From positions 1-45,373 of the forward strand of contig DSAS01000060.1 of NCBI GenBank assembly GCA_011046365.1: a stretch of DNA of 45,373 nucleotides, in the 5' to 3' direction. Positions 16,980 through 21,201 of the stretch are shown here, piece by piece. Position numbers and translations under genes: made by a program. The first letter of the stretch is position 1. Every line of letters begins with the position of its first letter. Under the pieces are notes generated by a model, which saw only the letters and a program-made list of their open reading frames with translations, had not been told where the DNA came from and ran no database searches. This DNA comes from Fidelibacterota bacterium. Its GTDB lineage: Bacteria > Fidelibacterota > UBA2242.

Positions 16980-18569
16980 TTATTCCAGCGGTTCCCACTC
17001 GGCGATGGTTTCAATTTCCACCCTGGTCTGCGGATCGGTGGTCCAAAACTCGTTGGCATTATAGGTCCAGCCCATGGTTTCCGAGCCCCCGCCACTCTCG
17101 GTAGTAATTAAAAAGCGATTTGCCAGGTGTCCGAAGTAATTAGCCTGGTCCCGGGGCAGTTCATTATCGCCGCCACTGGGGTCCACCGGTATCCAGCCGT
17201 AATTGGGCAGATAGACCTCCACCCAGCGATGAAAGACATTGTCCATGCAGGCGTCATCCCCGCGAACAACCACCGAGCCTACATAACGCGCCGGCAGTCC
17301 GGCGGCCCGGCACATGGCGATATAGACGAAACTATATTCCGAGCAGGAGCCGTTTCCGCGCGCCAAAACCGTCGGCGCCGTATTCCAGCCGCCCACCATC
17401 TCATAGTACATGTTGTCAATCAGATAGTTGTAGATTTTGCGGGCAATCCAGTAGGGATTGCGCTCGTCACCAAGACATTTTCCCAGCGCTTCCCGGATGA
17501 CCGGATGGTGAATTTGGTATTTCTCACCATCTTCAAGATACAGGGCTTTAATCTCCCCGGGAATGTCTTCCAGCGATCCGACCTTTTCGGGAAAAATAAA
17601 ATAGCGCGTCTCCCAGATCGTTGCATCGGTCACAGACACGATTTCCTGGACGGCTGAGAGGTCCAGATTTTCCGTCAGAAAACAGGCGGTTTTTTGTCCC
17701 CAGCGGTCGGTTTGAATTTTGGTATAGTTGGGAGTATAGACGATTTCAGCGTTGATCTGCTGGCTGTCGCGATTGCCGGGAATCGGCAGGTGAACTTCAG
17801 CCGACCGGACTTTCCCGGGACCGAAATTTCTGATCTGGTGAGTGATCGTCACCTTCGCCCGCCGTTCGTTGCTGCGAATAAATTTATCATCATCAATTTT
17901 CAACTGATACAGTTTATCCGTTTGGTAATCCACCGCCCAGAGATATTTCCCGTCAAACGTCATGCCCCGGGTAAAGGGACCCGGTGCCGCTGTTATCAGA
18001 ACGACACAGCCGCTTTCAGGATCAATCATATAGATTTCATCGGCGACCCGGTCCGCAACCCACAAATAGCGACCGTCGAAACAGAGTCCGCGGGGGTCCT
18101 TCGCCGGCGCGGTAAATTCTTTGATCGTTGTCCCATCAGCAGGGCTGAACTGGATGATTAAATCGGAACCGTTATCGGCGCACCAGAGATATTTGCCGTC
18201 CCAACCGAGTCCGCGCAGCGATCTGTCGGGAGCATCAATCGTCTTCAAAATTAGTCCTGTTTTCGGATCAATCCTGTAAATTTTTCCGGTGCTGATATCA
18301 GCATTCCAGAGTGCCTGCCCATCCCAGGCAAGTCCCATCGGCCAGTAAGCCGGTGAATCAATGGATTTCAGCACTTTACCGTTTTTGCGATTGATACAGA
18401 ACAGCTTGTCGGCTTTGCGGTCAGCCAGCCAGAGATGTTTGCCGTCAAAGGTCAGTCCCGTCGGACAGGTCCCGGGGATATCAAACTCGGCAACCACCTC
18501 ACCGGTAAAAGCCGGCAAATCCACCACTATCCAGGCGAAAACAATCATTAGTGAAAATACTCTTTTCAT
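16980..18569 (-). CDS. Exported five-repeat beta-propeller-like protein with C-terminal transglutaminase-like domain
   Basis: Signal-peptide-like N-terminus; five (F/W)DGxxLW motifs spaced exactly 41 aa; transglutaminase core GSCSEYSFVYIAMCRAAGLPARYV...HRWVEVYLPNYGWIPVDPS with Cys-His-Asp retained. Confidence 0.88.
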   Translation of the reverse strand: MKRVFSLMIVFAWIVVDLPAFTGEVVAEFDIPGTCPTGLTFDGKHLWLADRKADKLFCINRKNGKVLKSIDSPAYWPMGLAWDGQALWNADISTGKIYRIDPKTGLILKTIDAPDRSLRGLGWDGKYLWCADNGSDLIIQFSPADGTTIKEFTAPAKDPRGLCFDGRYLWVADRVADEIYMIDPESGCVVLITAAPGPFTRGMTFDGKYLWAVDYQTDKLYQLKIDDDKFIRSNERRAKVTITHQIRNFGPGKVRSAEVHLPIPGNRDSQQINAEIVYTPNYTKIQTDRWGQKTACFLTENLDLSAVQEIVSVTDATIWETRYFIFPEKVGSLEDIPGEIKALYLEDGEKYQIHHPVIREALGKCLGDERNPYWIARKIYNYLIDNMYYEMVGGWNTAPTVLARGNGSCSEYSFVYIAMCRAAGLPARYVGSVVVRGDDACMDNVFHRWVEVYLPNYGWIPVDPSGGDNELPRDQANYFGHLANRFLITTESGGGSETMGWTYNANEFWTTDPQTRVEIETIAEWEPLE

Positions 18570-18583
18570 CGCTTAACCCTCGC

Positions 18584-19039
18584 TTAAAAAATGTTCTTTT
18601 TGTTCTGAAAATAATGCTGTTTCAGCAACGCATTCAATCCCATTAAAAAAGGTCCCGCTCCACTGCCCATGAACCGCGCCACGACAACATCTTTCAGAAC
18701 CGACTGTTCAAAGGTCTCCACTGAAAACGGAAATTCCTCAATACAGACCTCCACAACGGGAATTTTTAAAATTCCCAGCAATTCCCGCAAACCAGCCGCC
18801 GACCGCGCCAACGCCCCCGGACAGATCAGGATGCCAGACACCTCGTTGCGGTTGCGGCTGATCGCCTTCAGAATCCGGGCTTCATCGTAGAACTGATAAA
18901 TTTTTAATTCAACGCCGGCAACTTGGGCTTCGCGCCGCAGAGTTTTGTTTAGCTTGTCCAGCGTCAGCCGTGTCCCGGTTGCAACCGAAACCTTGCCCAG
19001 CAGTGGCAGATTAGGACCGTGAATGACCAGAATCTTCAT
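18584..19039 (-). CDS. Divergent type II 3-dehydroquinate dehydratase-fold protein, probably not a canonical DHQase
   Basis: KILVIHGPNLPLLG, ICPGALARSAAGLREL, IPVVEVCIEE align with AroQ framework INGPNLNLLG / NPGAxTHTSxALRDA / PxIEVHISN. ORF-track start 19054 adds MYFCI; ATG 19039 preferred. Confidence 0.75.
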   Translation of the reverse strand: MKILVIHGPNLPLLGKVSVATGTRLTLDKLNKTLRREAQVAGVELKIYQFYDEARILKAISRNRNEVSGILICPGALARSAAGLRELLGILKIPVVEVCIEEFPFSVETFEQSVLKDVVVARFMGSGAGPFLMGLNALLKQHYFQNKKNIF

Positions 19040-19175: not shown

Positions 19176-20051
19176 CTACTGTTTCAGGCGCCTATCGTCG
19201 CTGAAAAAGGACCACTCCCAGACCACGGTAAAAGGCTTTAACCAGCCCTGCTGCTGCAGTGCCCAGAAGGGGGCTTCCGGGAGAATCAAGTGCTGGTTGT
19301 TGACAGAGAAAATCACTCTGCTACCATCCTCGCGATACTTCATCCGGGTCGTCGCCCGGCAATCAAAGCGCCAGCGCTGACCTGCCGGGCTGGCTTTTGC
19401 TTCCAGCTTGACCGGATTCAATGCCAGAGCTACCCGCCGATCGTCCGCTGTGCTCTGCCAGCTGACGGTTCGCGCCGGCAGGCTGACAAAGGATACGTCC
19501 CGACTCTGTCGCCCGAGCAGAACAATCCAGTTTTTAAATACTCCGCTCACCTTGGGCGATTTCAATGCAAAATCCGACCGCCAGCTGCGCTGAGTCCCGC
19601 CCCCAATGCCCAGCCGCAAAGACTGTCTGGCATATTCGGGAAATCCCAGTACCTGCCCGGATATGGAAATAATAAGGTTCGTCTGGTACACCGTCAGCTT
19701 GTCGGTAAAGGACAGTGCACCAGGTCCCTCTTTGGCAACTTTGCGCTCCAGCCGGTCAAACCGATGTTGGATTTCCTGAACAGGCAGCTTCGCAAACATT
19801 AACAGCAGAATTAATGCAAAAATGCCGAAAATTATCCGCATGATCGTGAGATGCCGGCTTGCCAGTTTAAACGGTAAAAACACAGGCACCAGAATCAGTG
19901 CAAATACAATCAGAAACAGACCGCCGATAAGCACCGCCCAGAAAAAAAACAGCAGCAGAAAAAATGAAACTGTTCCCAACAGAATAGTCAGCAAAAGCTG
20001 ACCCAGCCTATAAACAAATGCGCGCTCGTTTTTATTCGTCCCCAAACCCAA
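19176..20051 (-). CDS. Uncharacterised membrane protein
   Basis: Intact 291-codon ORF with TTG start preceded by AGGAA; two to three N-terminal hydrophobic segments then a soluble domain; no family recognised. Confidence 0.7.
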   Translation of the reverse strand: MGLGTNKNERAFVYRLGQLLLTILLGTVSFFLLLFFFWAVLIGGLFLIVFALILVPVFLPFKLASRHLTIMRIIFGIFALILLLMFAKLPVQEIQHRFDRLERKVAKEGPGALSFTDKLTVYQTNLIISISGQVLGFPEYARQSLRLGIGGGTQRSWRSDFALKSPKVSGVFKNWIVLLGRQSRDVSFVSLPARTVSWQSTADDRRVALALNPVKLEAKASPAGQRWRFDCRATTRMKYREDGSRVIFSVNNQHLILPEAPFWALQQQGWLKPFTVVWEWSFFSDDRRLKQ

Positions 20052-20121: not shown

Positions 20122-21201
20122 TCAAACGTTAAATCGAATTTCCATCACATCACCATCCTGTACAACATATTCCTTACCCTCGAGTCGGAGTAGCCCCTTT
20201 TGGCGACAAGCGGACAGGGAGCCCTGTTCCAACAGCTCTTTACAGGAAACCACATCCGCCCGGATGAAGCCTCTCTCCAGATCGGAGTGAATGACACCGG
20301 CTGCCTGTTGGGCAGTCATGCCCCGGCGGATTGTCCAGGCGCGACACTCGTCCGCTCCAACAGTAAAAAAGGAAATCAAGCCCAGCAAATCGTAGGATTT
20401 CCGCACCAGCCGGTTCAGCGCCGGGTCGCCAATGCCGAGCTCGTCCAAAAACTGCTGTCGGTCCGCTTCGTGCAATTCGGCAATTTCCCGCTCAATTTTT
20501 AAACACATCGGCATGATCTGGTCTCTTGATACTGGTAAACTGCCCCGGTCAGATAACCACCTTTCCGGATTCATCAGGTCAGCTTCAGAAATATTGAAGA
20601 TCGCCAGCCGCGGCTTAACGGATAAAAACTGATAGCCTTTGAGCAGCATCTGTTCCTCCGGGCTGAGCAGAATATCCTGCATCGCCCGCCCCTCCTCCAA
20701 TGATAACCGGCATTTCTGTAACAGTAAAAGCTCTCGCTGGTCCGTTGCTTCAGGTTTCTTTTGAAGCTGCTTTGCAAGGCGCTCCAGACGCTTTTCGATT
20801 ATCAGCAGGTCTGATAAGACAAATTCTGATAAGGCAAACTCCAGGTCTCTGAATGGATTCATCAAACCGAAAGGGTGCGGTACCAGATCATCTTCAAAAG
20901 CCCGCACCACCAGTACGATCTCTTCCACAATCTTTAAATCGGTAAAAAACTGTGACGAGAGCCCGCTCTCATTTAGCGGATCGAGACCGGTGATTTTGAT
21001 GTATTCAACCTGCGCCGGCACCTTTTTCTGCGGCTGAAACAGCGCCGTTAAACGGTCTAACCGGTCATCACCGATCTTAATAATGCCCCGTTCGGTTGAT
21101 TGTTTCGACTTAATGCCGTTACTTTCGGCACGCTGGCTCAACAGGGTTTGAAACAGTGTCGTTTTCCCCGCAAAGGGCAGACCGACAATTCCGACTTGCA
21201 T
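20122..21201 (-). CDS. YchF/OLA1-like P-loop protein with C-terminal DUF933 (TGS-like) domain, divergent
   Basis: P-loop GLPFAGKTTLF; C-terminus AAGVIHSDLERGFIRADVVS...LRLEGKEYVVQDGDVMEIRFNV closely matches YchF; AAGGAAAG SD-like upstream. Confidence 0.85.
   Translation of the reverse strand: MQVGIVGLPFAGKTTLFQTLLSQRAESNGIKSKQSTERGIIKIGDDRLDRLTALFQPQKKVPAQVEYIKITGLDPLNESGLSSQFFTDLKIVEEIVLVVRAFEDDLVPHPFGLMNPFRDLEFALSEFVLSDLLIIEKRLERLAKQLQKKPEATDQRELLLLQKCRLSLEEGRAMQDILLSPEEQMLLKGYQFLSVKPRLAIFNISEADLMNPERWLSDRGSLPVSRDQIMPMCLKIEREIAELHEADRQQFLDELGIGDPALNRLVRKSYDLLGLISFFTVGADECRAWTIRRGMTAQQAAGVIHSDLERGFIRADVVSCKELLEQGSLSACRQKGLLRLEGKEYVVQDGDVMEIRFNV

Follow-up and report, generated by a model that had tools for sequence, protein, structure and literature searches.

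A type II dehydroquinase fold conserved without its catalytic residues across Neomarinimicrobiota

The pseudo-AroQ locus

The window that we analyzed, the whole 45,373-nucleotide stretch of contig DSAS01000060.1 (assembly GCA_011046365.1), belongs to a Ca. Neomarinimicrobiota MAG that is 89% complete. It carries a gene for a protein with the fold of type II 3-dehydroquinate dehydratase (DHQase; AroQ) that lacks the catalytic residues of this enzyme, which we refer to as pseudo-AroQ. As the original prediction had stated, the reading frame is intact: it begins with an ATG, runs from 19039 to 18584 on the minus strand and encodes 151 amino acids without a single internal stop. The features of the locus are as follows:

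16980..18569, minus strand: downstream gene (beta-propeller and transglutaminase core), starting 14 bp after the pseudo-AroQ stop
18584..19039, minus strand: pseudo-AroQ gene (AroQ-fold protein, 151 aa, without dehydroquinase catalytic residues)
18845..18856, minus strand: codons of R62-N63-R64-N65 (positions 64-67 in M. tuberculosis numbering), the R-x-R of the clade, also found in catalytically intact sister AroQs
18953..18955, minus strand: codon of K29 (position 31 in M. tuberculosis numbering), K or R in 41/41 pseudo-AroQs
18959..18991, minus strand: residues 17-27 (VSVATGTRLTL), the remodelled lid loop with the first part of helix 1, standing for R19...Y24 of AroQ
19176..20051, minus strand: upstream membrane protein of 291 aa, without a Pfam match, present in 4 compared neighbourhoods
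20122..21201, minus strand: YchF-type GTPase, an upstream neighbour in 8 genomes of family f1

The downstream gene encodes a secreted-looking protein in which a lactonase-like beta-propeller is joined to the transglutaminase core. It is a conserved partner of pseudo-AroQ in 15 genomes from several families of the window's order, at a spacing of -4 to 75 bp (14 measured). Upstream, the membrane protein gene sits between pseudo-AroQ and the YchF-type GTPase gene, which is only loosely coupled to it (gaps of 255-1428 bp, six measured). In families f11, f13, f17 and f20, tight coupling is instead to the gene of an M23 peptidase lipoprotein (9 gaps measured, -4 to 75 bp), while a NUDIX gene lies upstream of pseudo-AroQ in f14, f15 and f18, and aroB does so in f10. 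Because the partners differ, with four coupled partners in four lineages (spacings of -4 to 75 bp overall), gene context names no function. A Cas6-like gene is found immediately upstream in family f4 (L160:6128-6910, G018), and the truncated neighbour in L162 is likewise Cas6-like.

An AroQ fold that has lost the residues of catalysis

The match of the window protein to PF01220 (DHquinase_II) spans the complete sequence (E 2e-21, 76.6 bits), and its single-chain AlphaFold2 model reached a pLDDT of 93.4. Among the PDB matches listed by Foldseek for this model, all were type II DHQases or a designed derivative, with a query TM of ~0.8. The protein is thus predicted to have the flavodoxin-like fold of AroQ; an AroQ fold had been proposed from the sequence alone. 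A second AlphaFold2 model, made for a shorter relative from another record (L073), had a pLDDT of 82 and was unreliable at 103-115; its best Foldseek matches were still AroQ structures. Against TIGR01088, the AroQ equivalog family, the window protein scored 76.5 bits, far under the cut-off of 169.85.

We aligned 41 pseudo-AroQ orthologues with 105 active AroQs (MAFFT) and numbered the columns by the M. tuberculosis enzyme, a row that serves as a ruler only: the conclusions are drawn from the 105 active sequences, none of which varies at the columns concerned. N12, R19, Y24, N75, H81, D88, H101, R108 and R112 are each present in 105/105 active AroQs. The window protein keeps N12 (its residue 10) and E99, and is otherwise changed: R19V, Y24G, N75C, H81R, D88E, H101C, S103E, R108S and R112F. 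Eight of the invariant residues (N12, R19, Y24, N75, H81, H101, R108 and R112) were scored as catalytic, and only N12 is left; none of the other seven is present. The loss extends to the clade as a whole, with Y24 in 0/41, R108 in 1/41, and R112 and H81 in 2/41 each, although H101 is still present in 17/41. Since these columns are 105/105 in the active set, the losses are neither alignment noise nor chance.

The full alignment does not restore the missing residues, so that the central claim of the original prediction, that nearly all of them are lost, stands. The retention of N12 and the changes R19V, N75C, H81R and H101C were read correctly by eye. Two other readings differ in this alignment, which leaves the conclusion unchanged: position 24, given as Thr, is Gly, with Thr as its neighbour, and position 112, given as Glu, is Phe, with Glu nearby.

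The DHQase of C. glutamicum loses all or nearly all of its activity when Ala replaces any one of N12, R19, Y24, N75, H81, E99, H101, R108 and R112 (PMC10772564). Because seven of these nine residues, each needed in C. glutamicum, are lost from the window protein, there is very little chance that it acts as a DHQase. An annotation based on Pfam only would call these genes DHQase, although this branch, which extends across the phylum, very probably lacks that capacity. Could the protein still catalyze a dehydratase-like or other reaction with different residues? The strongly conserved fold and the retention of N12, and often of E99, would fit such an activity, but the pocket has no conserved acid or base beyond the framework adjacent to N12, and the near-complete disappearance of Y24 and H81, together with the patchy survival of H101, makes altered catalysis highly improbable.

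A single clade with an origin inside the phylum

We surveyed 100 related genomes for full-length PF01220 matches. Active copies scored at least 170 bits and pseudo copies ~49-91 bits, and two intermediate copies scored 116 bits. Pseudo-AroQ is present in 39 of the 100 relatives, which belong to 13 families, always as a single copy per genome. All 41 pseudo-AroQs form one clade (SH-aLRT 97; ultrafast bootstrap 99-100), which is nested among the active AroQs of the phylum itself, with those of families f8 and f7 as its nearest neighbours in the tree. The branches between families are long, reflecting high divergence.

The copies of family f10 branch first within the clade and are partly decayed, with R19, N75 and H101 kept and with Y24F and H81F. 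A second aroB precedes them at a distance of 0 to -4 bp, an arrangement suggestive of a duplicated aroB-aroQ module as the origin of the clade. At two such loci (L170:5115-7404 in G028, and L171 in G033), the second aroB stands directly upstream of the half-decayed pseudo-AroQ, and the full aro operon (L207) is on a different contig; these loci are likely a snapshot of the founding module.

Beyond the phylum, a scan of 84,980 species by peptide patterns from one protein returned 193 relatives. Among the best 80 of the 193 loci, pseudo forms occurred only in Neomarinimicrobiota records and in L034, a record labelled 'bacterium' that matches a relative of the same genus, and the loci from other phyla were all catalytically complete. 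Distant pseudo forms outside Neomarinimicrobiota are possible, given that the patterns came from one protein.

Purifying selection on the pseudo-AroQ gene

Among close relatives, pseudo-AroQ genes have a dN/dS (Nei-Gojobori) of ~0.08-0.2, the same as the active aroQ of the same genus; these values are rough, with several comparisons saturated at synonymous sites. The gene is under purifying selection, with dN/dS ~0.1. Long branches between families, and three close genomes in which we did not find the gene (G008, G009 and G015), could be read as signs of a relic, kept by linkage or slow decay only, and the gene may be dispensable given these three genomes. A relic is nevertheless very hard to reconcile with this dN/dS, with frames that are all intact, with a single copy in 13 families and with columns that are more than 90% conserved. 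We rejected decay on the basis of dN/dS and clade conservation. Catalytic loss is thus combined with purifying selection in a stable orthologous group, as in a conserved pseudoenzyme.

Retention outside the shikimate pathway

The genome of the window encodes a normal, catalytically complete aroQ elsewhere (L001, G000:C15:4500-4901; 190 bits to PF01220). It is flanked by an aroK-aroB fusion and a DAHP synthase gene in an aroKB-aroQ operon, on a contig that also carries aroC and aroE, whereas the pseudo-AroQ gene is outside this operon. The genuine aroQ that the original prediction had said to look for therefore exists, and its absence, which would have spoken against a pseudoenzyme, was not observed. 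The two proteins are distant paralogs with 28% identity.

The 39 genomes with a pseudo gene differ widely in their shikimate genes. A separate active AroQ is present in 20 and a fragment of an active AroQ in one, and eight carry a type I AroD instead. In nine, aroC (chorismate synthase) was not detected, and eight of these genomes are at least 90% complete. In the remaining genome (G006), aroC was found and no DHQase was detected; its aroC contig ends close to aroC, and the absence of aroD there may reflect an assembly gap. We tested ten genomes from the groups without aroC or without DHQase and found aroE in 0/10 and, for aroB, one weak match only, in a single genome. The strongest evidence for a role outside the pathway is that genomes without aroC keep the pseudo gene, and pseudo-AroQ does not depend on the shikimate pathway. 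Together with the long-lived clade and the low dN/dS, its retention alongside a genuine aroQ, alongside AroD or without detected aroC bears out the view of the original prediction that this is a pseudoenzyme and not a decaying gene.

Two further observations concern the shikimate genes of these genomes. G006 has an aroA-aroC-pheA-tyrA cluster (L169, G006:C177), and neither aroB (PF01761) nor the N-terminal domain of shikimate dehydrogenase (PF08501) was detected in this genome, which would mean either that dehydroquinate is made by another route or that the assembly has a gap. In the window's order, the genomes without active AroQ that carry type I AroD (G007, G010, G014 and G016-G020) in several cases have it near a short aroC (335-340 aa), and the replacement of their shikimate genes seems to have occurred en bloc.

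Type II dehydroquinase assembles as a dodecamer (a tetramer of trimers), and a pseudo-subunit with a regulatory or structural part in the dodecamer of genuine AroQ would be in keeping with the retained fold, the many retained hydrophobic positions and the active AroQ that accompanies pseudo-AroQ in 20/39 genomes. We consider this quite unlikely, as no active AroQ at all was found in 18/39 genomes and aroC was not detected in nine, and the active AroQ of the window genome is the distant paralog described above. A heteromeric partner of active AroQ was accordingly disfavoured, the pseudo form being retained in AroQ-free genomes. The same counts affect estimates of the shikimate capacity of Neomarinimicrobiota: PF01220 counts mislead, since 18 of the 91 PF01220-positive relatives have the pseudo form only.

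A basic signature shared with intact sister enzymes

Several positions are conserved across the pseudo-AroQ clade: N12 (40/41), T28 (41/41), K31 (39 K and 2 R), R37 (37/41), K48 (36/41), R64 (33/41) and R66 (40/41); E99 is kept in 28/41. The lid has a new consensus of S20 (35/41), G24 (28/41) and R26 (29/41), which is missing in the early-branching f10 copies, and the pocket positions 75, 81, 101, 103 and 112 vary widely between pseudo-AroQs. The two new cysteines of the window protein, whose conservation the original prediction had said to test, were rejected as a functional pair: C73 is present in 1/41 orthologues and C99 in 5/41.

The basic residues K31, R37, R64 and R66 are also found in active enzymes. 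In the active AroQs of families f7 and f8 that were first examined, each of the four is present in 17/17, while K31 and R64 are present in 0/13 other active AroQs sampled from the phylum. Position 31 is K in all active AroQs that bear this patch and mostly E, D or Q in the others of the phylum. The signature was found in an active AroQ in 40 genomes, which have no pseudo gene, and in a pseudo-AroQ in 39; none of the genomes examined had both. Without exception (20/20), the basic signature is missing from the full-length active AroQs of genomes that have a pseudo gene, and 12 relatives have a signature-free active AroQ only. This exclusive distribution follows the gene tree, and only a few events may lie behind it.

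The main rival to the interpretation given below is a neofunctionalised binding or sensor protein, in which the old cavity under the rebuilt lid (S20, G24 and R26) would bind a new small anionic metabolite and the basic residues would be structural. A lid rebuilt to a new consensus and not randomised, together with the conservation of N12 and E99, speaks for such a pocket, but positions 75, 81, 101, 103 and 112 vary in a way not expected of a pocket constrained by a single ligand, and the f10 copies belong to the clade without sharing the lid consensus. We regard a new pocket as unlikely, though worth serious consideration. The original prediction had favoured a neofunctionalised or ligand-binding protein; either is possible, and the presence of K31, R37, R64 and R66 in intact sister AroQs favours an older side function at least as much.

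A side function that may have outlived catalysis

We propose, with a probability of roughly 45%, that pseudo-AroQ is a non-catalytic and probably oligomeric binding protein whose side function predates the loss of catalysis. A catalytic AroQ, probably one copy of a duplicated aroB-aroQ module, would have given rise to pseudo-AroQ once, inside Neomarinimicrobiota. The dehydration chemistry would have been lost, and the fold, Asn12, a remodelled lid and the basic residues, which are predicted to lie on helix 1 and after helix 2 (K31, R37, R64 and R66), would have been retained. These basic residues and the lid may hold an anionic ligand or a partner, presumably in an oligomer, or the residues could stabilise the fold instead of binding. 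Because the signature is equally conserved in intact sister AroQs, and is present in them only where the pseudo form is absent, the role is likely to have started as a secondary function of the still active enzyme, a moonlighting origin. This side function would have been left behind once DHQase activity had passed to another AroQ or to AroD, or had vanished with the pathway.

More specifically, and only tentatively, the AroQ of the phylum may have had a second, non-catalytic function, marked by K31, R37, R64 and R66, before catalysis was lost, and this function alone may have preserved the protein, with one form per genome, either active or pseudo. If so, pseudo-AroQ would be a case in which nature has cleanly separated a side function from catalysis, and the intact sister enzymes with the same basic signature would offer a direct test of the non-chemical role of AroQ. 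In either case, pseudo-AroQ probably has an undiscovered job other than that of a DHQase.

Relation to known systems

Textbooks cover type II dehydroquinase as a pathway enzyme, and it is also a drug target; pseudoenzymes as such are already known. Our literature search on dehydroquinase pseudoenzymes or moonlighting, and on the shikimate pathway in Marinimicrobia, found nothing relevant and no description of a type II dehydroquinase pseudoenzyme that is kept phylum-wide and outlives its pathway; its coverage was incomplete, and it counts as weak evidence of novelty. Among the closest known systems is type II AroQ itself (PF01220, TIGR01088), with which the window protein shares the fold, the length, the GPN motif, E99 and ~28-40% identity. 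It differs from this enzyme by the lack of R19, Y24, N75, H81, H101, R108 and R112, by a score below the TIGR01088 cut-off and by its position outside the shikimate operon. The aroQ of its own genome belongs to the same Pfam family but is catalytically complete and part of the aroKB-aroQ-DAHP-synthase operon. A third comparison is with the signature-bearing active AroQs of families f7, f8 and f12 (e.g. L023, L142 and L201), which share K31, R37, R64 and R66 and the TLDK signature, and of which those of f7 and f8 are nearest in the tree; unlike pseudo-AroQ, they have all eight catalytic residues tested, and the f8 copy is the aroQ of the aro operon.
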